This document shows, piece by piece, positions 3,637 to 25,611 of a stretch of 64,000 nt of DNA. Positions within the stretch are counted from its first letter, which is position 1; each line of letters opens with the position of its first letter. The position numbers were made by a program, and so were the translations under genes. The stretch is from NCBI GenBank assembly GCA_016866235.1, contig VGMW01000002.1:1-64000 (forward strand). The letters run 5' to 3'. Below the pieces are notes generated by a model. It had not been told where the DNA came from. It did no database searches and saw only the letters and a program-made list of their open reading frames with translations. This DNA comes from Bacteroidota bacterium. Its GTDB lineage: Bacteria > Bacteroidota > Bacteroidia > Cytophagales > Cyclobacteriaceae.

Positions 3637-4383
3637 TTATTTATCGGTTGGCATCGCAAAAACAGATGCATCAACTTTTGGATTCACTTCTAGTGAAGTG
3701 ATGGTAATCGTTTGCCCTGGTCCGCCCTTCATTCCTATCGTTGTGCTAAAAGGAAACATCAATCCATTCACTTCCTGATAGTCACTCAGTTTGGTTTGGG
3801 TAACTGTGCCTTTACCGGGCCCTGATTTGGTCTCGCTTTCAGTAACAATCGGCACATAATCGTTGGCGTCGAAATAATAAAACATAATGTTTTCCTCCGG
3901 CTTTCCATCGACGGTAATGGGCTTACGGGTGAGTTTTAATTTGAAGCACTCTGTTCCCTCAACAGTTTCCTTACCCACCATATCCACTTTGTATCCTTTT
4001 GATTTGTAGTCAAGGAATGGATCGGGGAAATCTCCAATGTTGACTTTAAAATTTTCGGTTGACTCCGCATCACTTTTCTCTGCTTTCATAGTCATGAAAT
4101 TCATGGACCACAATGTATTGCCATCAAACACACCCTGCTTTATTTCTTTTCCCTGAAAAGTAATGGTGGTCGCCTGTCTGCCATCTTTCAGTTGAAGAAT
4201 TGACAATGGAATTTCCATGCCCATCTGATTTACCTTAGCGGACATTTTTATTCCTGAAAGCGCTCTCCATTTGTCCATACCGCCTGTGTTTTCGAAATAT
4301 TTAGAAAGCACATCATCTGCACTTTGAGCCCAAAGACCACTGGAGGCAAGCATCAGGGCTATCAGAGGTAGTAATTTTTTCAT
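3637..4383 (-). CDS. Exported LolA/LolB-fold-like outer membrane lipoprotein-sorting family protein
   Basis: This is a 248-residue protein with a textbook signal peptide (MKKLLPLIALMLASSGLWAQ, cleaved after about residue 20). The mature part resembles the family Bacteroidota annotators call outer membrane lipoprotein-sorting protein: an N-terminal helix with a 'yfentGGmdkwra' pattern, then alternating beta strands with a conserved 'FDGNTLWSMN' segment and a terminal 'FPFSTTIGMKGGPGQ' segment. Without a LolCDE or LolB context I infer only a fold similarity to LolA, not a proven lipoprotein carrier role. It ends at a strong hairpin and is probably monocistronic. Confidence 0.75.
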   Translation of the reverse strand: MKKLLPLIALMLASSGLWAQSADDVLSKYFENTGGMDKWRALSGIKMSAKVNQMGMEIPLSILQLKDGRQATTITFQGKEIKQGVFDGNTLWSMNFMTMKAEKSDAESTENFKVNIGDFPDPFLDYKSKGYKVDMVGKETVEGTECFKLKLTRKPITVDGKPEENIMFYYFDANDYVPIVTESETKSGPGKGTVTQTKLSDYQEVNGLMFPFSTTIGMKGGPGQTITITSLEVNPKVDASVFAMPTDK

Positions 4384-4553
4384 TTTATCGGGGTTTGATG
4401 GTAATAAGCTTATTTAAACTGATATGCCAGATTTAAGTTTCAAGATTAAAAGGATTTCTCTATTCCAGGAGAAAAACTTGTGAAGAATGGCCTAAAGCTT
4501 CGATTAGTAAAGGATTATCGAAATTGCGCTTCCAATTTCAACAGGAAACCGGA

Positions 4554-6629
4554 ATGAAAAAGGCCTTAATCATCATTTTTTGCAGCTTTTTAGCCGTTGC
4601 TGAAAGCCAAATTCTATCTCCGGCCATATGGTCCTATGCTTCTGATAAACGTGAAACAGTCGCTGGAAACACCATTGAGCTCACTTTTTCAGTAAAAATT
4701 GACCCAGTCTGGTACCTGTATTCAACGGAGTTCAAATGCGAAGATGGTCCTTTGAAAACCACTTTCACCTTCGAACCACATCCAAGCTACCAGCTCGAAG
4801 GAAAGATCATTCCCATTAATCCAATAGACAAGACCGATGAGATTTTTGGTTGTGACGTGCGGATTTTTAAAAAGACCGCAACCTTCATTCAGAAAATAAA
4901 AGTTCTGAGCAACCCGCTTGTATTGCGGGGCATGTATGAGTATCAGGTGTGCAGCGAAACAACTGGGCAGTGTGTTCCCGGTGATGGTGAATTTGACTTC
5001 GGATTTATCAAAGTTACCGGCAAAGCTTCTGAGCCTGTCGCGGCGCCCGAAAAGGAGAAAGAGGAGATATTCACCATAAAACCATCAGAGACCCAGACTC
5101 CCAACGAAGTTGCGCCAACGGGAGCTTCCATTTCTGAAACCTTTAATGGGCCCATCATTGACAAATCTATTTTAACCGAAGAAAAGGAATTCGGAGAGGA
5201 GTCGTTTTTCGGTTACCTGTTGTTTGCCTTTGTACTTGGGCTTACCTCATTGATTACGCCTTGCGTGTTCCCAATGGTGCCGATGACGGTAACCTTTTTT
5301 CTGCGCGATGGGCAAAGCCGAAGTGAGGGAATCAAAAAAGCAATTGTCTTTGGATTTAGCATTGTTACAATCTATACACTTGCGGGCACGCTGTTCGCTG
5401 TGTTGTTGGGAACCGATGGACTCAATGCGCTGGCAACGCACTGGGCGCCAAACATTTTTATTTTTATTCTGTTTCTGATTTTCGCGCTTTCATTTTTCGG
5501 TCTCTTTGAAATCAATGCGCCTCACAAGCTGGTCAATGCCGCTGACCGTAAAGCTGAAAAGGGAGGTTGGGCTGGTATATTCTTCATGGCGGCCACGCTG
5601 GTACTGGTATCATTTTCGTGCACGGTCCCCATTGTTGGCAATGTTCTTTTTATGTCGGCCGGTGGACAAATTCTGAAACCAGTTGCCGCGATGTTCAGTT
5701 ATGCACTGGCTTTTGCATTACCCTTTACACTTTTTGCTGCCTTCCCGGAATGGATCAAGGGTCTGCCGAAATCAGGCGGTTGGCTTAACACCGTAAAGGT
5801 TACCCTCGGTTTTCTCGAACTCGCACTTAGTCTGAAATTTCTAAGCATAGCCGATCAGGCATACCATTGGGGTCTCTTGGACAGAGACGTAAACCTTGTT
5901 CTTTGGATTGCAATTTTCAGTTTGCTTGGACTTTATCTCCTGGGGAAAATCAGGATGAAGGGCGATTCGCCCATTGAATCCATTAGTGTGTTCCGTTTAT
6001 TAATGGCGACCGGCATCTTCTCTTTTGTTGTATACCTCATTCCCGGACTTTGGGGCGCGCCACTTAAGGCATTGGCAGGCTATCTGCCTCCGTTGTACAC
6101 CCACGATTTCAATCTGGTAAAAGAAAATGGTGAGAAGGCCTTGTGTGAAAATCCTAAATACGCTGACTTCCTCCATCTGCCCCATGGACTCAGTGGATAC
6201 TTCGACTATAACCAAGCGCTGGCTTGTGCCAGGAAAGAAAACAAACCACTGTTCATTGATTTCACCGGACATGGCTGTACCAACTGCAGAGAAATGGAGG
6301 CAGTCGTTTGGAGTGATCCCGAAGTTCTTAAAAGACTAAAAGAAGATTTTGTAGTGGTCGCGCTCTATGTTGACGATAAAACACCGCTGCCGGAATCTGA
6401 ATGGGTGACCTCGAAATATGATGGTAAGGTTAAAAAAACCTTGGGCAAAAAGAATGCAGACATTCAAATTGCCAACCTGGAAAATAATGCACAGCCATTC
6501 TACGTTCTGCTCGGACCCGACGAAAAAGTACTGGCCTGGCCATATGCGTACAACCGTGATTCGAAAAAGTTTATTCAATTTCTTGAGCTCGGCAAGTCGC
6601 GCCATGCTGAGCGTTACAGCAATCAATAA
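4554..6629 (+). CDS. DsbD-family thiol:disulfide interchange protein
   Basis: This inner-membrane reductase would carry electrons from cytoplasmic thioredoxin to periplasmic thiols. From the ATG at 4554 (AGGAAA lies just upstream; a TTG 30 bp earlier is in frame but would spoil the signal peptide) it has 691 residues: a signal peptide, an N-terminal beta-sandwich domain with Cys133/Cys140, a linker, about eight membrane segments from residue 220 to 500, and a C-terminal thioredoxin-like domain with Cys575-Thr-Asn-Cys578. The membrane cysteines sit in TPCVFPM (Cys237) and SCTVPIVG (Cys356), so all three DsbD redox pairs are present and it should be active. An M23 lipoprotein follows after 24 bp and may be co-transcribed. 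The gene could equally be called a CcdA-type cytochrome biogenesis protein, but the three-domain build argues for DsbD. Confidence 0.92.
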   Translation: MKKALIIIFCSFLAVAESQILSPAIWSYASDKRETVAGNTIELTFSVKIDPVWYLYSTEFKCEDGPLKTTFTFEPHPSYQLEGKIIPINPIDKTDEIFGCDVRIFKKTATFIQKIKVLSNPLVLRGMYEYQVCSETTGQCVPGDGEFDFGFIKVTGKASEPVAAPEKEKEEIFTIKPSETQTPNEVAPTGASISETFNGPIIDKSILTEEKEFGEESFFGYLLFAFVLGLTSLITPCVFPMVPMTVTFFLRDGQSRSEGIKKAIVFGFSIVTIYTLAGTLFAVLLGTDGLNALATHWAPNIFIFILFLIFALSFFGLFEINAPHKLVNAADRKAEKGGWAGIFFMAATLVLVSFSCTVPIVGNVLFMSAGGQILKPVAAMFSYALAFALPFTLFAAFPEWIKGLPKSGGWLNTVKVTLGFLELALSLKFLSIADQAYHWGLLDRDVNLVLWIAIFSLLGLYLLGKIRMKGDSPIESISVFRLLMATGIFSFVVYLIPGLWGAPLKALAGYLPPLYTHDFNLVKENGEKALCENPKYADFLHLPHGLSGYFDYNQALACARKENKPLFIDFTGHGCTNCREMEAVVWSDPEVLKRLKEDFVVVALYVDDKTPLPESEWVTSKYDGKVKKTLGKKNADIQIANLENNAQPFYVLLGPDEKVLAWPYAYNRDSKKFIQFLELGKSRHAERYSNQ

Positions 6630-15261: not shown

Positions 15262-15502
15262 AAGGGGTGTTGAATTGTGTACAACCTTCGGTCTGTTGAG
15301 GAATTGTTAGTGTATATAGTTTTTTAGGTTTTGATTTCCTTGGTCTTGCTTAATAAAAGCATCCTCACGCAAAGTTATGCACAATGTTGATGGATGTATT
15401 CTACAATTGTTGAATGTTAATAGGGTGATTCAGTTACTTACTTTTCATTGCTGATTGTTGTCAACTTTCTCCATATAACCTGTCGTGGTAGTTGTCCACA
15501 AG
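15262..15502. other. Intergenic region with three DnaA-box-like 9-mers (candidate origin element) and the TPR-gene promoter
   Basis: This non-coding gap holds TTATGCACA at 15375-15383 (fits TTATNCACA), TTGTCCACA at 15492-15500 (one mismatch from TTATCCACA) and, on the minus strand, TTGTACACA at 15276-15284 (one mismatch). Between them lies an AT-rich stretch (about 15305-15360) that could unwind. On the minus strand TAACTTTG (15370-15377) matches the TAnnTTTG -7 promoter element and could drive the TPR gene. Clustered DnaA boxes beside an AT-rich tract and within 5 kb of two ParB-type sites fit an origin or a DnaA-regulated promoter. The boxes were found by eye and no perfect TTATCCACA is present. 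Confidence 0.35.
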
Positions 15503-17119: not shown

Positions 17120-17985
17120 TTCTGGAAGATAAAGATATTGCTTGAGTAATTCTTAGTTCGCCGCGCCATGATGTTTGATACGCCCCCCGTAATGAAGGCT
17201 CTTAGGTAGCTCAATAAATCAGTTTGACCTTTTATGTATTTCTCGCTTAGCAGGCTGACATAATAAGAGTCAAGTTTCATCGGGTGGCCGCCTTCATATT
17301 TCCAGCCTGATTTTTCTGCAACGTTTATTAAGGACTTTTTAGTGAAATGATGTAAGTGACGCGGAACATCATATCCAGCCCAATATTTTTTGTAATGGTC
17401 TGCATCGTAACTTTTATAGTTTGGCACAGCGACGATCAATAAACCATTTCTGGGGGCAAGTTCATTAAGCCTCTTTAATTCAAGCGTTGGGTTCTTCGTG
17501 TGTTCTAGTACATGCCAGAGGGTTACCAGATCGTAACGTCCTCTTATTTCTTCGGCTGACTTGGTTATAGGTATGCCTGTTTTTTTCTCAGCTTCTTTTC
17601 TAGCCTCGTGATTAGGCTCTAATCCCATTATCGTCCAGCCCCTTCCTTTCATATAAGTTAAGAATGCCCCCGTTCCGCATCCATAGTCTAATAGGCTTCC
17701 TGGATTCTTCTTATATCTTGAAATGATTTTGTGCTTGTATCGAAGCATCAATAGCCGTGATACTTTGTACAGTTGTACGAGGAGGCCTCCTCCTTGATCG
17801 GTGTGTGAGTAGTATTCTTTGGAGTTGTAGTAGGAGCTTGTGTCATTGTTTTCTGGAAAATTTGTGGCGCCATGTCCACAGTCATTGCAAAAGCTGACTA
17901 TGAATTTTTTCTTCGACAGAAAGTGATCAGTTATTTCCTGATCTGTTAGCTCCATCGATCCACAAGCAGGACATTTTAAGCTCAC
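17113..17985 (-). CDS. Class I SAM-dependent methyltransferase with N-terminal zinc ribbon
   Basis: The 290-residue protein begins with a two-knuckle zinc ribbon (CPACG at residue 5 and CNDCG near 32) and then a class I methyltransferase domain with SAM-binding motif I LDYGCGTGAFLTYM at about residue 95 and 'LWHVLEHTKNP' as the motif following strand 4. A histidine-rich 'VPRHLHHFTKKSL' segment near residue 200 is typical of the Methyltransf_23/UbiG-like family, which modifies small molecules or sugars. The ATG overlaps the mnmG stop by 4 bp (ATGA) and the Ig-like gene overlaps its end, so it is co-translated within the operon. The substrate is unknown; the zinc ribbon hints at NovP-like or polysaccharide methyltransferases rather than a tRNA enzyme. 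Confidence 0.82.
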   Translation of the reverse strand: MSLKCPACGSMELTDQEITDHFLSKKKFIVSFCNDCGHGATNFPENNDTSSYYNSKEYYSHTDQGGGLLVQLYKVSRLLMLRYKHKIISRYKKNPGSLLDYGCGTGAFLTYMKGRGWTIMGLEPNHEARKEAEKKTGIPITKSAEEIRGRYDLVTLWHVLEHTKNPTLELKRLNELAPRNGLLIVAVPNYKSYDADHYKKYWAGYDVPRHLHHFTKKSLINVAEKSGWKYEGGHPMKLDSYYVSLLSEKYIKGQTDLLSYLRAFITGGVSNIMARRTKNYSSNIFIFQKC

Positions 17986-19856
17986 TTCCCGAGGTATATG
18001 GTTAGGATAGAAACGTCGGCAGGTGATACGCCAGAGATTCGTGACATTTGTCCGATGGTTTCCGGTTTTACCTTTTTGAGTTTTTCTCTGGCTTCTGATG
18101 AGAGCGCTTTAACGAGATCATAATTGAAGTCCGGCCGTATTTTATAATCCTCCAGCCCTTGTATTTTTTCTGCCAGCTTTTGTTCTCTATCGATATAGAC
18201 TTGGTACTTCAATTGAATTTCTGCCTGTTCGATAATTTCTTTTTTATAGCGTGACGTAAGATTTGAAAACTCAGGTGACAATTGTTGCAGTACGCCAGTT
18301 CCGATTTCAGGTCGCTTGAGCAAAACTGAGAGAGAAATTTTTTCGTTGATTGGTGCGGACTGTGCTTCTGTGAGAATTTGATTCGCTTCTTGTGGTGTGA
18401 CTTTGGTTTGTTCCAGAGCCTTGGTGATTTCTAATGTTCCACGTTCTTTCTCTAACAATTTCTGAAAACGGGATTCATCAGCCAAGCCTAGCTCATGGCC
18501 AGTTCTGGTCAATCGAAGATCAGCGTTGTCCTGGCGTAGAAGAATGCGATACTCTGCACGGGATGTGAACATTCGGTATGGCTCTTTTGTTCCCTTAGTG
18601 GTGAGGTCGTCAATTAGTACACCTATGTATGCCTGATCTCTTGTTAATGTGAATGCGGGTTTATTGTTAATCTTTAGGTGCGCGTTAATGCCCGCCATTA
18701 ATCCTTGACAGGCCGCTTCTTCGTACCCCGTAGTCCCATTGATCTGACCCGCAAAGTACAGATTATCAATTAGTTGTGTTTCTAAAGTAAGCTTTAATTG
18801 TTCTGGGGGGAAGAAGTCATATTCAATGGCATAGCCTGGACGGAACATTCTGGCTTTTTCAAAGCCCGGTATATTGATGAGTGCCTGATATTGAACGTCC
18901 TCAGGCAGAGATGTGCTGAAGCCATTGACGTAGATCTCAACTGTATTCCAGCCTTCCGGTTCAACAAAAATTTGATGTCTTTCGCGGTCAGCGAACCGAT
19001 TAATCTTATCCTCAATAGAAGGGCAATACCTTGGCCCCAAACCTTTTATGCGTCCCTGAAACATGGGAGATTTTTCAAACCCTGTTTTCAGAATATCGTG
19101 GACCTTATCGTTCGTATAGGTAATGTGACAGCTGAGTTGTTTTCTGGGCCCTGTCTCTGTTTTGTATGAGAAGACGCCCGGTTCCTCGTCGCCCGGCTGT
19201 TCTTCCATTTTTGAATAATCAAGGCTTCTTCCATCAATTCTTGGTGGTGTCCCGGTTTTCATTCGGCCCGCCTCAAACCCTAATGCTACCAGCTGCTCTG
19301 TTATTCCGTGTGAAGCCCTTTCAGCTGTTCTACCACCACCGAAGTTCTTTTCGCCTATATGTATTAGTCCGTTAAGAAAAGTTCCATTGGTTAAAACCAC
19401 GGCCTCGGAGAAAATTTCAAGTCCCATAGACGTTCTTACACCACAAGCTTTCTTGTCCTTAACTATGATTCCCGTAGCCATGTCTTGCCAGAAATCCACG
19501 TTCTTGGTCTTTTCAAGCGCTATTCTCCAGGATTCAGAAAAGCGCATTCTATCGTTTTGTGTTCTTGGACTCCACATAGCAGGCCCCTTTGACCTATTCA
19601 ACATTCTAAACTGAATTGCGCTCTCATCTGATACTATACCTGAATAACCCCCTAGGGCGTCTATTTCTCTAACAATTTGTCCTTTGGCCACACCCCCCAT
19701 GGCGGGGTTACAGGACATTTGTCCTATAGTGGTCATATTCATGGTTACCAACAAGACCCTAGATCCCATGTTTGCTGCCGCGGCCGCAGCTTCGCAGCCG
19801 GCATGCCCTGCCCCCACTACGATAACATCATACTTTGGAAAAATTCCGCTATTCAT
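17982..19856 (-). CDS. mnmG: tRNA uridine-5-carboxymethylaminomethyl(34) synthesis enzyme MnmG (GidA)
   Basis: MnmG with MnmE installs the cmnm5 group on U34 of tRNAs that read split codon boxes. The 624-residue length is normal. Residues 10-35 hold the FAD-binding DVIVVGAGHAGCEAAAAAA dinucleotide fold; 'SCNPAMGGVAKGQIVREIDALGG' follows near 50-72, and 'GTPPRIDGRSLDY' and 'CHITYTND' are further family signatures; the C-terminal helical domain ends with 'RISGVSPADVSILTIYL', the part that contacts tRNA and MnmE. The next gene start overlaps its stop. The 22-bp gap to ybeY upstream is almost filled by a ParB-type palindrome. mnmG is near the replication origin in many bacteria, which fits other signals here. 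Confidence 0.97.
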   Translation of the reverse strand: MNSGIFPKYDVIVVGAGHAGCEAAAAAANMGSRVLLVTMNMTTIGQMSCNPAMGGVAKGQIVREIDALGGYSGIVSDESAIQFRMLNRSKGPAMWSPRTQNDRMRFSESWRIALEKTKNVDFWQDMATGIIVKDKKACGVRTSMGLEIFSEAVVLTNGTFLNGLIHIGEKNFGGGRTAERASHGITEQLVALGFEAGRMKTGTPPRIDGRSLDYSKMEEQPGDEEPGVFSYKTETGPRKQLSCHITYTNDKVHDILKTGFEKSPMFQGRIKGLGPRYCPSIEDKINRFADRERHQIFVEPEGWNTVEIYVNGFSTSLPEDVQYQALINIPGFEKARMFRPGYAIEYDFFPPEQLKLTLETQLIDNLYFAGQINGTTGYEEAACQGLMAGINAHLKINNKPAFTLTRDQAYIGVLIDDLTTKGTKEPYRMFTSRAEYRILLRQDNADLRLTRTGHELGLADESRFQKLLEKERGTLEITKALEQTKVTPQEANQILTEAQSAPINEKISLSVLLKRPEIGTGVLQQLSPEFSNLTSRYKKEIIEQAEIQLKYQVYIDREQKLAEKIQGLEDYKIRPDFNYDLVKALSSEAREKLKKVKPETIGQMSRISGVSPADVSILTIYLGK

Positions 19857-19862
19857 ATCTTT

Positions 19863-19878
19863 TGTTCCACGTGGAACC
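19863..19878. other. ParB-binding (parS)-type site, 15 of 16 positions palindromic consensus
   Basis: TGTTCCACGTGGAACC differs by one end base from the perfect palindrome TGTTCCACGTGGAACA found 76 bp away, and shares the TGTTNCACGTG half of the well-known parS consensus TGTTNCACGTGAAACA. It fills the gap between the ybeY stop and the mnmG start. Its function as a ParB site is inferred. Confidence 0.7.
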
Positions 19879-20376
19879 TTAAAAACCTTTTTTAGATCCT
19901 TTTTTGGCCTTATTAGACTTTAGGGCCTTCTTTTTGATTGTTCCACGTGGAACACTCCACAAAGATAGGCAGGCATCCTCTTTTCTAGTCATTTCGGCCT
20001 TTTTAGATGGAGATTTATCACTATAACCCATGAGATGAAGAAATCCGTGGATAATCACCCGTCTTAGCTCAGTATGAAATTTTACGCCAAGTACATCCGA
20101 GTTTTCTTTAACCCGATCAGTACTGATGTAAAGCTCTCCGTTTATTTCCTTCCCACCGTCACCTAAATCAAAGGTTATGATATCCGTGAGGGTTTTATGT
20201 TTTAGGAATCGGTTGTTAATGTTCAAGAGAAACGGATCATTACAGAAAACTACCGAAGCTTGATTTAGACTAAATCCTTCTTTCTCGATTATTCTGGTTA
20301 TCCAGGATTTTAAATGAGAAGCCTGGTCAAGTTTGAACCTAACTTGATTTTTATGAAAGACGATCTTACTACTCAT
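19879..20376 (-). CDS. ybeY: Endoribonuclease YbeY (16S rRNA maturation / quality control)
   Basis: YbeY is a metal-dependent RNase needed for 16S rRNA 3'-end processing and ribosome quality control. The 165-residue protein has the family core 'NINNRFLKHKTLTDIITFD' and the metal motif His110-Gly-x-Leu-His114 followed by Gly-Tyr. The usual third ligand in HGxLHLxGYDH is Asp120 here (HLMGYSD); I recall this substitution from other Bacteroidota YbeY, so activity is still likely. It starts at an ATG sharing one base with the upstream ATPase stop (TAATG), so the two are coupled. The C-terminal 25 residues are a Lys-rich tail beyond the usual fold, and the codons for Ser-Val-Pro-Arg-Gly-Thr within it form a perfect ParB-type palindrome. 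Confidence 0.94.
   Translation of the reverse strand: MSSKIVFHKNQVRFKLDQASHLKSWITRIIEKEGFSLNQASVVFCNDPFLLNINNRFLKHKTLTDIITFDLGDGGKEINGELYISTDRVKENSDVLGVKFHTELRRVIIHGFLHLMGYSDKSPSKKAEMTRKEDACLSLWSVPRGTIKKKALKSNKAKKGSKKGF
19939..19954. other. Perfect 16-bp ParB-binding (parS)-type palindrome inside the 3' end of ybeY
   Basis: TGTTCCACGTGGAACA is a full 16-bp palindrome and conforms to the parS half-site TGTTNCACGTG on both strands. It lies within the coding sequence of the YbeY tail, where it dictates the residues Val-Pro-Arg-Gly-Thr. A near-identical copy is 76 bp to the left. No parA or parB gene is in the window. Confidence 0.75.
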
Positions 20377-20774
20377 TACTTATAGAAGCAGAGCTTGACG
20401 CAGCTTCCATTATTTTCAAAAGAGACCTCATCCGCCAGGTGCTTCATCAGAAATATTCCTCTACCGGCTGGTTTGTCAATGTTTTCAGGAAGTGTCGGGT
20501 CTGGAAGTTGTTGATAATCAAATCCTTGCCCACTATCCTGGATAATAAAACGAATCGAATGGTCATCCATTGACAGGGTTAAAGACACATTTTTCTCCGG
20601 ATCGGCAGCGCTTCCATGACGAATGGCATTGTTAACCGCCTCGGTTACTGAAATCATGATGTTGCCATAGATGTCATCATCCATCCTGTAATCATCCCTG
20701 GCATTTTCAATGAAGCTCTCGATCATCCGGATGTTTTCCGGTATCGCGGGAATATCGATGGTGATGCTCTTCAT
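20376..20774 (-). CDS. RsbW/SpoIIAB-like serine-protein kinase/anti-sigma ATPase (HATPase_c_2)
   Basis: The protein is a stand-alone GHKL ATPase of the anti-sigma/switch-kinase type. It has the N box SVTEAVNNAIRHG, the G1 box QDSGQGFD and the G2 segment GRGIFLMK. In partner-switching systems such proteins bind a sigma factor and phosphorylate a STAS-domain antagonist; neither partner is in this window. I chose the ATG at 20774 (132 residues); a TTG at 20789 overlapping the DUF4175 stop would add five residues. It sits between a DUF4175 membrane protein and ybeY, coupled to the latter by a TAATG junction, so it may tune envelope or ribosome functions, which is inference. Confidence 0.86.
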   Translation of the reverse strand: MKSITIDIPAIPENIRMIESFIENARDDYRMDDDIYGNIMISVTEAVNNAIRHGSAADPEKNVSLTLSMDDHSIRFIIQDSGQGFDYQQLPDPTLPENIDKPAGRGIFLMKHLADEVSFENNGSCVKLCFYK

Positions 20775-20785
20775 CAAATAATTAT

Positions 20786-23700
20786 TCAAAACTGCTTTCC
20801 TAGGCGCTGAAGATACTGCTCTGCTTCCTTTTTATAATACGGATACATCTTTAACGGAACACTTCTGAGCAATTCCGATTCACGCTCCTTCATGCGAAGA
20901 TATTCTCTAAAGGCTTTCGGAATATCTTTTTCATAATCTTTTGCCGTCTCCCCTTTTCGCTCCGGATCCATCTCCTGTTCACGCATAGACTTTTCAGCTT
21001 CAAGCAATCGGGTTAAAATTTCCTTTTGTCTTCGAATGGTTTGTTCCGTTATCTGCTTGTTCACCAGATCAATTTCTGTTTGCTCCATTTTAGCAGGGAT
21101 GTCGCCGCCAATCTTTTGTCCATTTTGCTCGTCAAGTTTTTCCTGAAGATTTTGCAACGCCTTCCGAATCCTCTCCTGCTCTGCCGCCATTCGAGCCAGC
21201 TCCTCCGAAAGTTCCCTCCCACCCTTTTGCCCGTTTTTGATCTGTTCAATCTGCTCGTTCAACTGACGTTGCATTTCTGCCAATCCTGGATTTTTCCCTT
21301 TCTTCTTTCCCTTTCCTTTTCCAGGCTTTGACATCATTTCCATCATCATCTGAAAATGATCATTTAGCATCAGCGAAAGATTGTTCATGGAAGTCATACT
21401 TAACTGCATCTCTGCCGAAGCATTGCTTTTCTTTCTTTCTCTGATGAATTCAGTAGAACGATCAAGATGATGGTTAAGCTCACCGATTTCACGTGTAACA
21501 AAACTTCCAAGCGCCATATCTTTTTTCCCTAATTCCATTAAACTGTCTTCCAGAACCTTGGCATCGTCCTGCAATTTCAACTGATACTGTGAAAGCCTCA
21601 GGTAGTCGGGATCAGCGGTATTTACCTTTGAAAACTCCTTCATGTTCTGCTCCTCATCAAAAGACAACTTGAGCATGCCATGCAATATTTGCCTTAAGCT
21701 TTCAAGGTTGGCCATGTCCATTTCCATCTGCATGGCGCTCTGCATGTTGGAAAGATTCTTTTCCATTTCTTTCATTTTTTGGATGGCCTTTTTCTGGGAC
21801 TCTCCTGATTTTTTACTGTCCCCACCCTTCAATTCCTGCTCACTCTTTTTCATTTCTTCCTGAACTGAATCGAAGTCGCTGTCTTCAGGTAAAGCCGAGT
21901 CGTCCTCACCCAACTCTTCTGCAGTTTTTCTGATGTCCTCCATCTGAAGTTTCTCATCGCCCAGATTTTCTTCGAGCGCTTTTTGTTGTTCGGCCAATTG
22001 GTCCTGTTCGGATTTTTTCTCCTCCCCTTTTTCGTTTCCGTCCAAAGTTTCTTTAAGAATTTTCTCCTGGTTTTTGATGCTCTCTTTAAGTCGATTCAGG
22101 CTTTGATCGATTTTTGATTCGAGCTGAAGCTGTTTGAATAACTCCTTGATTCGATCGAGCTCCTTTTCAAGGTTGATCTCATTGCGCTGAATCTTATCGA
22201 GAAGTTTCTGCATTTGTTCAGGCTTTGCATTTTCACGCAGAAGCTTTTCAAGCTCTCCGAAAAGTTTCTTGGTTTCCTCATCCAGTAATTCATCCATCAG
22301 CTTCTGCAGCTGCTCGGTCTTTTCTTTGATCCGCTCATCCTGCTCATCGAATGACGTTCTCTTGTCATTGAGCAACTTATTTTCCTGACTTAGTTCCTGG
22401 AGCGCTTTTTCAAGATCATTTTTTTGCTTCAGGATGTCTTCCATCATCGCCTTATCCTGCCAGTCAAGACTTTGCTTACCACGAAGCTTTTGTTGAGCCT
22501 CTTCAATTAATTTGCTTAAGGTCTTTACTTGTTCTGAGCCTGTTTTGATTTCCTCTTTTGTCCTTGACTCAGAAAGTTTTATTTGCTGATCAAGCGCTCT
22601 TTTGCCCGGCACCATCAAAACAAATTGCTCGCTTCGGGTTGACTTATTTCCATTTACACCGTCGTTGTCCCATACCTGCAGGTAATACTCCAGCCGATCG
22701 CCTGGGGCCAACGAAAGGGAATCGATAGACCAAATTTGTATGAACTCCTGTGATGCCTTGCCCGGCAAAATCTGAATGGGGTAGGACCGGTATTCAAGCT
22801 CTTTGATGCCGATACCGGACTTTCGCCAAAAAACCTTTAATGACTGAATTCCGTGATCATCGCTTACATCTCCGCCGAGGTAAACAGCTTTGAAAAAAAC
22901 AGAGTCCTGAGCGTTGCGTACCGAAATCTTTGGAAACTCATCTTTAATAACTTTCACATCATATCCGATCACATCTTTGTTTTCGCCAAAATCATTTTTA
23001 AGTCTGATCTCAAAAGGCGAATCATCCCGAAAAACTTTTTGGAAAGAAAACCACTCGTTTCTCTCAGCGTTCATGGCTTCGGCCATGCCTTCACCAAATT
23101 TTATACTGGCTTCCTGCGCGGCGCGGGTTGATATCTTCCATTTAACCGTAGTTCCTTCCGGCACTTCCAGATTTCCTGCATTGTCAATTTTTTGAGAACG
23201 CATACCGAGATAACTCGGAAAAATCAGCTCACTCGAAAGCCCTGAAAGTTCCGGCCGCGATTTGATTTCGATTTTATAGGCACCTGAATAATAACCCGCA
23301 GCATAGAGCCGGAACTCTTGTGATTTCTGAATCCTGGAGAAAATAAAACGAAACTGATTTTTTCCATCAGGCACCATCTTTCGAAGCATGCCATTTTGTT
23401 CCACGAAAAGTTCGTCGGGCAATGAACCGCCTTCAAGACCGGCCAACAGCTCAAAGTCTTCTCCCATATATCCTTTCAATTCCTGATTCTGAATCTGGAA
23501 ATCAAAGGGCGCCTGTGGGACGTATGTTTCAGAAAAGTTAAGGATGCGGGTGGTGCTACCGGTGATTACCGTTGAATTAATCAACAGCACGGCAATCAAG
23601 ACCGTTGTAGGCACGACAAGCCACGGCAGGTATTTTTTATTCAGCCGTAGATCAATTGTTTTTTCGAATGCCAATGTTCCGATCCGTACAAATTTCTGAC

Positions 23701-24082
23701 GTAAACTGGCCTCGGCCAGGGGAGAGTCCACCGTCTTCGAAAGCTGCAGCATGTTCAGCAGTTGATCATCTACCTGCTGATCCGACTTTCCGATAATCTT
23801 AGCTGCGATTTCATTGTCCATACCCCTTTTGAACAAATACCAGAGCAGGGGCTCGCGCAGGTACTTTAACCAACAGACGACCAGCAGGCCAATAAACGCA
23901 GCAAGAACGATCAGGCGAAGGAATGAATTCAACCATAAAAAATGCTCGCTGAAGGAGGCAAACAACACATAAGACAAAATAACACCCGCGCTCAGCATCG
24001 ACCCTCGTAGCAGCTGACTCAGGTAGTAACGGTTTTTAAATGGAAGCAACCGTTCATCAATTCTTTTTGTCCACTCAGTCAT
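20786..24082 (-). CDS. DUF4175 family large membrane-anchored coiled-coil protein
   Basis: This is a 1098-residue protein. Three hydrophobic segments near residues 25-45, 48-70 and 150-170 anchor the N-terminus in the inner membrane. A beta-rich periplasmic part follows (about 180-480; 'KAVYLGGDVSDDHGIQSLKVFW' is an Ig-like DUF4175 hallmark), then about 450 residues of Gln/Glu/Lys-rich heptads that should form long coiled coils with several acidic runs (residues 510-1030). The family is common in Bacteroidota and alphaproteobacteria and has no established function. The N-terminal topology and long coiled coil suggest an envelope-spanning scaffold. The coupled ATPase, YbeY and MnmG genes follow downstream; an ATG at 24082 is supported by the membrane segment pattern. 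Confidence 0.85.
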   Translation of the reverse strand: MTEWTKRIDERLLPFKNRYYLSQLLRGSMLSAGVILSYVLFASFSEHFLWLNSFLRLIVLAAFIGLLVVCWLKYLREPLLWYLFKRGMDNEIAAKIIGKSDQQVDDQLLNMLQLSKTVDSPLAEASLRQKFVRIGTLAFEKTIDLRLNKKYLPWLVVPTTVLIAVLLINSTVITGSTTRILNFSETYVPQAPFDFQIQNQELKGYMGEDFELLAGLEGGSLPDELFVEQNGMLRKMVPDGKNQFRFIFSRIQKSQEFRLYAAGYYSGAYKIEIKSRPELSGLSSELIFPSYLGMRSQKIDNAGNLEVPEGTTVKWKISTRAAQEASIKFGEGMAEAMNAERNEWFSFQKVFRDDSPFEIRLKNDFGENKDVIGYDVKVIKDEFPKISVRNAQDSVFFKAVYLGGDVSDDHGIQSLKVFWRKSGIGIKELEYRSYPIQILPGKASQEFIQIWSIDSLSLAPGDRLEYYLQVWDNDGVNGNKSTRSEQFVLMVPGKRALDQQIKLSESRTKEEIKTGSEQVKTLSKLIEEAQQKLRGKQSLDWQDKAMMEDILKQKNDLEKALQELSQENKLLNDKRTSFDEQDERIKEKTEQLQKLMDELLDEETKKLFGELEKLLRENAKPEQMQKLLDKIQRNEINLEKELDRIKELFKQLQLESKIDQSLNRLKESIKNQEKILKETLDGNEKGEEKKSEQDQLAEQQKALEENLGDEKLQMEDIRKTAEELGEDDSALPEDSDFDSVQEEMKKSEQELKGGDSKKSGESQKKAIQKMKEMEKNLSNMQSAMQMEMDMANLESLRQILHGMLKLSFDEEQNMKEFSKVNTADPDYLRLSQYQLKLQDDAKVLEDSLMELGKKDMALGSFVTREIGELNHHLDRSTEFIRERKKSNASAEMQLSMTSMNNLSLMLNDHFQMMMEMMSKPGKGKGKKKGKNPGLAEMQRQLNEQIEQIKNGQKGGRELSEELARMAAEQERIRKALQNLQEKLDEQNGQKIGGDIPAKMEQTEIDLVNKQITEQTIRRQKEILTRLLEAEKSMREQEMDPERKGETAKDYEKDIPKAFREYLRMKERESELLRSVPLKMYPYYKKEAEQYLQRLGKQF
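21485..21500. other. Degenerate ParB-type site inside the DUF4175 gene
   Basis: GATTTCACGTGTAACA keeps the CACGTG core, both inner TT/AA pairs and the outer ACA end of the parS consensus, but mismatches at three positions. It may be a weak site or chance; it is listed because it lies between the strong sites at 19.9 kb and the one at 25.3 kb. Confidence 0.25.
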
Positions 24083-24147
24083 CGCAAAGAATCAATTGAA
24101 ACGCTTGATTTTTTTGTTGGTTTGATCGGAGCATAAAAAGTGCAGCA

Positions 24148-24525
24148 TCATTCGGCAGGATTTTCATCAGGATTCCATCCAAGCTCGTGAACAAAGTATT
24201 CAACGACATGCTCGCGCAGGAGATGCTCCTGTTCAAGGAGATCAAATCGGGGTAATTTTTTGACCAACTCCCAATGCGGCCATCCTTCCTGATCAATGCC
24301 TTTGAGTTCATAATAGCCCGCCAGGCTAAGTACTTTACAGATGGCAATGTGCATGAGATCTTGTTTTTCCTCTTTGGAAAAATTTCTATTGCCTTTGCCC
24401 AGTTCATGTACGCCAATAATGAATAGTACCGCATTTAAATCCTTGGGCCTTTTTCCTATTGTCTTTTGAAGGTATAGCGTAAGCCTTCCCCACTTTCTGG
24501 CCAGTTCCAGATCACGTTTATACAT
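24148..24525 (-). CDS. Conserved hypothetical protein (125 aa, Bacteroidota type)
   Basis: I do not recognise a named domain. The 125-residue protein is compact, predicted helical and soluble, with a 'NAVLFIIGVHELGKG' segment followed by a 'KEEKQDLMHIAICKVLS' helix and a His/Glu-rich C-terminal third (HLLREHVVEYFVHELGW). Several His and Glu residues are spaced as in helical metal-binding proteins, but no standard motif is present. It lies between the carboxymuconolactone-decarboxylase-like gene (6-bp gap) and the DUF4175 gene (65-bp gap) on the same strand, so it may belong to the same long transcript as ybeY and mnmG. Confidence 0.75.
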   Translation of the reverse strand: MYKRDLELARKWGRLTLYLQKTIGKRPKDLNAVLFIIGVHELGKGNRNFSKEEKQDLMHIAICKVLSLAGYYELKGIDQEGWPHWELVKKLPRFDLLEQEHLLREHVVEYFVHELGWNPDENPAE

Positions 24526-24531
24526 TTTCAG

Positions 24532-24873
24532 TTACGAAGCCTGCAGAGCATTCCAATATTCAAAAGCCCTTCTGAGATGGGGAATAACAATGGTTCCGCC
24601 GATCAGGGTTGCGACACCCATGGCTTCCTGAACTTCTTCTGTTTTGAAGCCCACCTCCTTACATTTTCCCAAATGATACTTTACGCAATCATCACACCGC
24701 AATACGAGCGAACAAGTAAGGCCGATGAGCTCTTTTGTCCGAATATCCAGTGCGCCTGGCGCGTAAGCATTCGTGTCTAGGTTAAAAATCCTTTTGATCA
24801 GGAGATTATCACTGTCGAGGATCTGTTTATTCATCGCCGAGCGATAGTCATTAAACTGTTCTACCAATCCCAT
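24532..24873 (-). CDS. Carboxymuconolactone decarboxylase / AhpD-like protein
   Basis: From the ATG at 24873 the protein has 113 residues; an upstream ATG in frame at 24966 would overlap comF on the other strand and add 31 residues unlike the family. The AhpD-type redox motif is complete: Glu48 in 'TKELIGL', Cys60-Asp-Asp-Cys63, and His67. Such proteins act as alkylhydroperoxidases or thiol-disulfide switches; a true carboxymuconolactone decarboxylase is unlikely with the CxxC motif. The conserved 'AMGVATLIGGTIVIPHLRRAFE' C-terminal helix pair supports the trimeric AhpD fold. It is divergent from comF, 45 bp apart, and leads the leftward block. Confidence 0.88.
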   Translation of the reverse strand: MGLVEQFNDYRSAMNKQILDSDNLLIKRIFNLDTNAYAPGALDIRTKELIGLTCSLVLRCDDCVKYHLGKCKEVGFKTEEVQEAMGVATLIGGTIVIPHLRRAFEYWNALQAS

Positions 24874-24899
24874 ACGTGTATTTAGTTTGCGAAGCACCT

Positions 24900-24907
24900 C
24901 AAATCTA
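24900..24907 (-). promoter_or_regulatory. -7 promoter element for the leftward AhpD-like / DUF4175 block
   Basis: Read on the minus strand, TAGATTTG matches the TAnnTTTG element and lies 26 bp before the ATG at 24873. It sits in the 45-bp divergent gap next to comF. No clear -33 TTG was found at the right distance. Confidence 0.4.
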
Positions 24908-24918
24908 ATCAGCCGAAA

Positions 24919-25611
24919 ATGAATTGGAGTTACCTGGAAGACTTTGCAAGATTGTTTTTTCCTCACTTCTGTTATGGATGTGGCGGCTCGATGGTTTCAG
25001 GCGAGAAATTATTGTGCACCTCCTGCATTATGCAGCTCCCTTATTTGTCCTATGGACAAAATGAAAACAACCCGCTAACCCGCCGACTGGTTTCTAAAAC
25101 CCGTTTTGAATACGGTTTTGCTTTGCTTCGATTTAAACAGTCCGGGCTTGCTCAAAATTTATTGCACGCATTAAAATACCAGGCACAGCCCGAAATTGGC
25201 TTTCGTCTTGGGCAAATCCTTGGTTTACGAATGTCCAGGCAGGGTTTTTCAGAGAATTTTGATTTGGTTTTACCAGTTCCCATCCATGTTTCACGTGAAC
25301 GGGTTAGGGGCTATAACCAAAGTGAAGCCTTTGCGAATGGCGTTGCCGCAGGGATCGGCAAGGAGGCCATCATTAAATCGGCGGTTCGCTTGCGTAAGAC
25401 AGAGACCCAAACCAGGAAGGATAAAATGAGCAGATGGAGAAATGTAGAAGGGTCGTTTAAAGTTCTTGATCCTGAAGTTATCCGAGGAAAACGCATTCTT
25501 ATCGTCGATGATGTTATTACGACCGGCGCGACAGTAGAGGCCTGTGCGGCAGAAATCATGAAATATGACCCAATTTCACTAGGCGCAGCTTGTATTGCCG
25601 ACGTTGTTTAG
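24919..25611 (+). CDS. ComF family protein (phosphoribosyltransferase fold)
   Basis: This is a 230-residue ComF/GntX-type protein. It starts with a four-cysteine zinc finger (CYGCG near residue 18 and CTSC near 34), then the 'LKYQAQPEIG' helix, 'PVPIHVSRERVRGYNQSE', the classic ComF signature, and a C-terminal PRPP-binding loop ILIVDDVITTGAT. In naturally competent bacteria ComF helps in DNA uptake; in others its substrate is unknown. The ATG at 24919 directly precedes the conserved 'LFFPHFCYGCG'. A ParB-like palindrome core (TTCACGTGAA) is built into the conserved HVSRER codons. Weak hairpins follow the stop. Confidence 0.93.
   Translation: MNWSYLEDFARLFFPHFCYGCGGSMVSGEKLLCTSCIMQLPYLSYGQNENNPLTRRLVSKTRFEYGFALLRFKQSGLAQNLLHALKYQAQPEIGFRLGQILGLRMSRQGFSENFDLVLPVPIHVSRERVRGYNQSEAFANGVAAGIGKEAIIKSAVRLRKTETQTRKDKMSRWRNVEGSFKVLDPEVIRGKRILIVDDVITTGATVEACAAEIMKYDPISLGAACIADVV
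25287..25302. other. ParB-type site (13 of 16 parS consensus) inside comF
   Basis: TGTTTCACGTGAACGG matches TGTTNCACGTGAAACA except for its last three bases and contains the perfect 10-bp palindrome TTCACGTGAA. It overlaps codons for the family-conserved HVSRER residues, so it could be chance driven by protein constraint; it is supported only by proximity to the two strong sites at 19.9 kb. Confidence 0.4.

Follow-up and report, generated by a model that had tools for sequence, protein, structure and literature searches.

What are the two palindromes that lie 76 bp apart, start to start, where ybeY meets mnmG in this genome? We approached the question in a window of 64,000 nucleotides, which is positions 1-64000 of contig C2, and in a scan of the whole genome (2,772,386 bases in 12 contigs). 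Four features of the window are needed at the outset:

19939..19954, no strand: predicted parS site 1, a perfect 16-bp palindrome, TGTTCCACGTGGAACA, in the 3' end of ybeY
19863..19878, no strand: predicted parS site 2, TGTTCCACGTGGAACC, in the 22-bp gap between ybeY and mnmG
17982..19856, minus strand: mnmG (gidA), PF01134, the gene that parS accompanies in most of the relatives examined
19879..20376, minus strand: ybeY, PF02130, whose 3' tail is coding through predicted parS site 1

Two palindromes of the parS form

A re-scan against the 16-bp palindromic parS consensus TGTTNCACGTGNAACA gave no mismatch at the 19939 site and one at the 19863 site, which bears out the coordinates and near-perfect match that a first-pass annotation had given for both strong palindromes. 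The 19863 site occupies 16 of the 22 bp separating the end of ybeY (19879) from the start of mnmG (19856). When the window was shuffled, two matches at up to 3 mismatches arose in 1 of 100 shuffles. Compared with the P. aeruginosa sequences of parS1-parS4 in Table 1 of PMC4368675, the 19939 site is parS2/parS3 and the 19863 site parS1/parS4 of Pseudomonas aeruginosa, letter for letter. The first-pass annotation had regarded a palindromic right half, rather than the GAAACA form, as unusual; it is instead a known, standard form of parS, because it is shared with P. aeruginosa and, according to the table in the review PMC7022226, with P. putida, and is near-identical in Myxococcus xanthus.

Within the 2.77-Mb genome, the pair at 19863 and 19939 provides the only matches to TGTTNCACGTGNAACA at up to 1 mismatch, where a reversed control pattern has none. 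Rather than the many scattered sites that would have spoken against a centromere, there are thus two, in one region. At up to 2 mismatches the count rises to 17, compared with 4 for the reversed control, and these matches are spread over the contigs. For this reason we place two weaker sites, at 21485 (2 mismatches) and 25287 (3 mismatches), at background level; in each, only 5 of the 8 dyad pairs are intact and 3 are broken. At the homologous places in 17 related loci (12 DUF4175 and 14 comF places) the best match had 4-7 mismatches. We therefore rejected both as cluster members, and the four-site cluster reaching comF that had been proposed shrinks to the 19863/19939 pair.

A predicted parS-type ParB encoded on another contig

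The absence of a parB gene from the window had been correctly noted, and it does not extend to the genome: a profile search found one ParB match, to TIGR00180 (E 1e-54), on contig C3. Its locus (L011, C3:100183-103716) also encodes a ParA ATPase, in an ORF at 614-1396 of the locus (AAA_31, E 5e-70) that overlaps parB from upstream, and a DUF5683 gene follows parB. By eye, we take the gene after DUF5683 to be dapB and the ORF before parA to be yidC-like. The ParB_N, HTH_ParB and ParB_C domains all score over cut-off, and the protein has matches of about 200 residues among solved ParB/Spo0J chains. We surveyed ParB residues in 30 loci fetched out of 38 ParB matches, with numbering taken from PMC7383237 via the offset of the GK-R motif. 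All 30 loci have R at position 173, G at 201 and Y at 179; position 184 holds K in 29 of them and R in the remaining one, and the GERR and ENIQR motifs are conserved. In PMC7383237, R173/G201 is the parS-type combination and Q173 and R201 are the Noc residues; the latter are absent from the surveyed loci, and a Noc/NBS nucleoid occlusion site was rejected on this ground. The genome's ParB carries R173 and G201 and, judged by its sequence, is of parS type, with CTPase motifs, a parS-type HTH and a dimer domain. The genome also encodes SMC (1023 bits) and a TIGR00281 protein, presumably ScpB.

In established ParABS systems, dimers of ParB bind parS, close into a CTP clamp and slide, making contact with ParA and loading SMC. 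By analogy, a dimer of ParB, encoded together with parA on another contig, would bind each of the two palindromes; bound ParB would close as a CTP clamp and may slide over mnmG, ybeY and the neighbouring DNA, where loaded ParB could serve both as cargo for ParA and as a loading place for SMC. The expected outcome would be that newly copied origins are parted. From these sequence comparisons, we consider it very probable that 19863-19878 and 19939-19954 serve a ParABS system as its chromosomal parS centromere. The identity of the sites, their rarity, their conservation and the presence of a ParB all favour this reading, which the first-pass annotation had already proposed, and which holds for the pair only.

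Conservation beside mnmG

In a set of 39 genomes of the same order, our own included, a site with up to 1 mismatch was found in 31, mnmG over cut-off in 33 and a ParB match in 34. Sites lie at ybeY and/or mnmG in 21 of 29 relatives' loci (L013-L041, one locus per genome and not always its best site); the other eight (L016, L017, L019, L030, L031, L035, L039 and L040) lack homology to those window genes that served for the comparison. Strong conservation in relatives thus answers another objection to the parS reading, that the sites might not be conserved at all. In four genomes (G006, G012, G017 and G022), two of them 97% complete, a ParB match is absent despite parS-like sites, so that an assembly gap or a divergent ParB must be assumed. 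One further genome, G025, 99% complete, has neither a ParB match nor a parS-like site at up to 1 mismatch, and joint loss of ParB and parS is possible there.

A first, broader survey comprised 110 mnmG loci, 80 of them named; it includes our own locus, and one locus repeats another (L105 repeats L044). Sites with up to 1 mismatch occur within 600 bp upstream of mnmG in 77 of the 110 loci, at a density of 128 in 71.8 kb upstream of mnmG compared with 39 in 1,673.5 kb elsewhere. With our own locus and the duplicate removed, 82 of 108 loci carry the exact 14-bp core NGTTYCACGTGRAACN in the span from 1.5 kb before to 300 bp after mnmG, and 26 carry none. The core is near mnmG in 69 of 78 loci where ybeY is adjacent versus 13 of 30 where it is not. 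Genera with sites include Algoriphagus, Roseivirga, Echinicola, Pedobacter, Mucilaginibacter, Chitinophaga and Chryseobacterium.

The pattern extends across the phylum. Among 99 genomes sampled, our own included, the exact core is present in 93 and the reversed pattern in 4. We examined 88 of the 98 phylum genomes other than our own around mnmG (28 among those listed, read by eye, and 60 fetched), of which 78 have the core within 3 kb of the gene and 10 have none within that distance. A site at that distance is present in 26 of the 28 listed genomes, G102 and G075 being the exceptions, and in 52 of the 60 fetched ones. Altogether, 168 loci hold 274 copies of the core, whereas none of 100 permuted palindromes reached more than 1 copy. 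The flanks vary, with conservation of 0.03-0.32 bit per base over the 11 or 12 positions that border the core to left and right, the core's own conservation in this comparison being a consequence of selecting exact matches.

These data bear directly on whether the palindromes are products of chance or of coding constraint, without function. One site does lie in coding sequence, and 15 of the 17 genome matches are two-mismatch copies elsewhere. Phylum-wide recurrence beside mnmG amid variable flanks is hard to reconcile with such an origin, and we hold it refuted by the phylum sample and the permuted palindromes, leaving it a negligible probability. An equally negligible one attaches to a role in RNA, as a hairpin ending the ybeY mRNA or preceding mnmG. 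Each palindrome could fold into a short stem (three short strings gave -5.5 to -8.1 kcal/mol), but 53 of the 274 sites combine C at position 5 with A at position 12, two bases that do not pair in RNA; sites are found both before and after mnmG, and neither of our two is followed by a T run on the transcribed strand.

A more serious alternative is that the palindromes are operators through which a transcription factor, or ParB acting mainly as a regulator, controls mnmG or a ybeY-mnmG operon. In many loci a site indeed begins 10-22 bp ahead of where mnmG is estimated to start. Yet other lineages place sites after the gene: the 60 fetched regions include 28 with sites upstream, 40 with sites downstream and 16 with sites on both sides. 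Where ybeY and mnmG have parted, a site is kept at each (L130, L153) or stays with ybeY (L038), and the motif is that of parS in a genome that encodes a parS-type ParB. We regard regulation as quite improbable, and a centromere remains the preferred reading.

Much of the phylum retains parS next to mnmG, away from parAB and dnaA. Just 1 of the 274 copies lies within mnmG, at +392 from its start in L170 (CP075895.1). With parS beside mnmG, and parAB and dnaA elsewhere, mnmG, and not dnaA or parAB, would mark the centromere-origin region of the phylum. On this tentative and somewhat doubtful interpretation, the centromere is anchored to mnmG across Bacteroidota (before it, after it or on both sides, almost never inside it), and something selects for the link, perhaps the loading of ParB over mnmG or the early doubling of the gene.

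Several loci depart from the common arrangement. The genome of L170 has two further sites about 0.85 kb upstream of mnmG. Seven Chryseobacterium loci (L159, L166, L168, L172, L173, L175 and L177) have one parS before mnmG and another past its 3' end (about +1880), so that the gene is flanked by centromere sites. In Terrimonas ferruginea (L136), at least 8 parS-like sites with up to 2 mismatches lie within 1 kb between ybeY and mnmG, forming an expanded array. Ten Saprospiraceae/Lewinella-like loci (L118, L122, L124, L126, L127, L134, L138, L164, L165 and L179) have no ybeY in the fetched stretch and no parS near mnmG.

Position relative to the replication origin

The first-pass annotation had added that such clusters normally lie near the origin, a point that we approached by sampling 20-kb stretches and regressing GC skew on two variables, gene-strand bias and the side of parS on which a stretch lies. 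With gene strand accounted for, the skew shifts at the sites in three of the five relatives examined. In G023, a single contig of 4.26 Mb, t is 5.7 for an origin at parS; the maximum, 6.26, was reached in 0 of 1000 shuffles and falls at 2472-2536 kb, parS itself being at 2570 kb. Two relatives with parS in mid-contig gave t values of 3.2 (G019) and 4.0 (G008). These three support an origin near the sites. In the other two, G033, a complete genome, has a non-significant t of 1.5 at parS (636 of 1000 shuffles), and G028 gives a weak signal, with t 2.1 at parS but the best fit at 2830-3099 kb, 0.57-0.84 Mb from its parS at 3666 kb (42 of 1000 shuffles). In our own genome, 10 of 10 stretches are positive on the long side of parS on contig C2, as expected, the other side spanning only 20 kb; inside the 64-kb window, gene-strand noise leaves no usable GC-skew signal.

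We considered dnaA as an origin marker and rejected it, the change in skew at this gene having t values of -0.9 (G023), 1.0 (G033) and 0.3 (G028). Our own genome has positive skew in 8 of 10 stretches of contig C1, with t 1.4 from the regression at dnaA. The change at parB in G023 has t -1.6. In the single-contig relatives, the best-scoring parB lies 1.2 Mb (G033), 1.7 Mb (G023) and 3.1 Mb (G028) from parS by the shorter way round. The parB gene of G023, at 31 kb, is about 0.4 Mb from the point opposite parS.

A candidate oriC

A gap on the far side of mnmG from the palindromes offers a candidate for the origin itself:

15262..15502, no strand: candidate oriC, a 241-bp gap homologous to a gap with clustered DnaA boxes in related loci
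15375..15383, plus strand: DnaA-box-like TTATGCACA, in the candidate oriC
15492..15500, plus strand: degenerate DnaA-box-like TTGTCCACA, in the candidate oriC
15276..15284, minus strand: degenerate DnaA-box-like TTGTACACA, in the candidate oriC

The gap is intergenic, with 64% A+T compared with 56% in the window. Its own boxes are weak: one TTATNCACA box and two degenerate copies, and no perfect TTATCCACA box was found in the window. The argument for an origin here comes from relatives. In Cytophagales-like loci (L101-L117 and L120; such group labels were assigned from record titles), TTATNCACA boxes gather at offsets of +4.3 to +5.0 kb, counted from the start of mnmG. At +4300..5000 there are 20 boxes versus 0.58 expected in L101-L109 and 25 versus 0.28 in L110-L117 and L120, with at least 2 boxes in 6 of 9 loci of the first set and 5 of 9 of the second; as this division into discovery and test sets was made after the pattern had been noticed in 17 loci, it is only a partial control. 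Counting k-mers with no motif preset, in 19 gaps that had been chosen for their boxes and that include the window's own, ranked TTATCCACA as the top 9-mer (21 occurrences versus 0.84 expected, in 12 of 19 gaps). At the same offset in five other groups, box enrichment was either not significant or marginal (0.045, in the Chryseobacterium group). Two of these five groups have weak bins at +5000..+5500. Extrapolating from the relatives, we think it reasonably likely that replication starts near parS, the leading candidate for oriC being the gap at 15262-15502, some 4.4 kb from the sites.

Relation to known systems and significance

The sites themselves look like ordinary, textbook-like parS. As described in PMC4368675, parS1-parS4 of P. 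aeruginosa share with them the same 16 letters, the company of ParA and ParB, and a clustering that in our genome, too, would be near the origin; in P. aeruginosa, however, four sites are clustered where we find two, and parAB here is on another contig and not beside the sites. Within the same phylum, Bacteroides caecimuris and Muribaculum intestinale likewise have ParABS homologues. PMC10197239 reports such homologues in all 12 gut-strain genomes studied, uses parS clusters and GC skew to place the origin, and states that the origin is not always with dnaA, these two strains not being named at that point; gidA is absent from its text. It also reports that no known condensin was found in B. 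caecimuris and M. intestinale, whereas our genome has Smc and a TIGR00281 protein. An origin region beside gidA/mnmG recalls the gidA-linked origins of gammaproteobacteria (PMC6323995 and PMC10225481), with the difference that in those bacteria oriC itself adjoins gidA, whereas here parS does and the candidate oriC lies about 4.4 kb further on. A literature search, mostly of titles and the starts of abstracts and hence no proof that the link is unpublished, found no paper naming a parS-mnmG link in Bacteroidota.

The points of interest are the phylum-wide anchoring to mnmG and the candidate oriC. If the anchoring holds, a single gene, mnmG, could mark both the centromere and the probable origin in a large phylum where dnaA or parAB can mislead, with uses in orienting Bacteroidota genomes and MAGs and in choosing places for origin labels. 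The 241-bp candidate oriC is a testable prediction.

One further feature of the neighbourhood is a HATPase_c_2 gene at 20376-20789 of the window, between ybeY and a long gene that we take to be DUF4175-like. Of 18 Cytophagales-like loci, 15 have the HATPase gene upstream of ybeY/mnmG.
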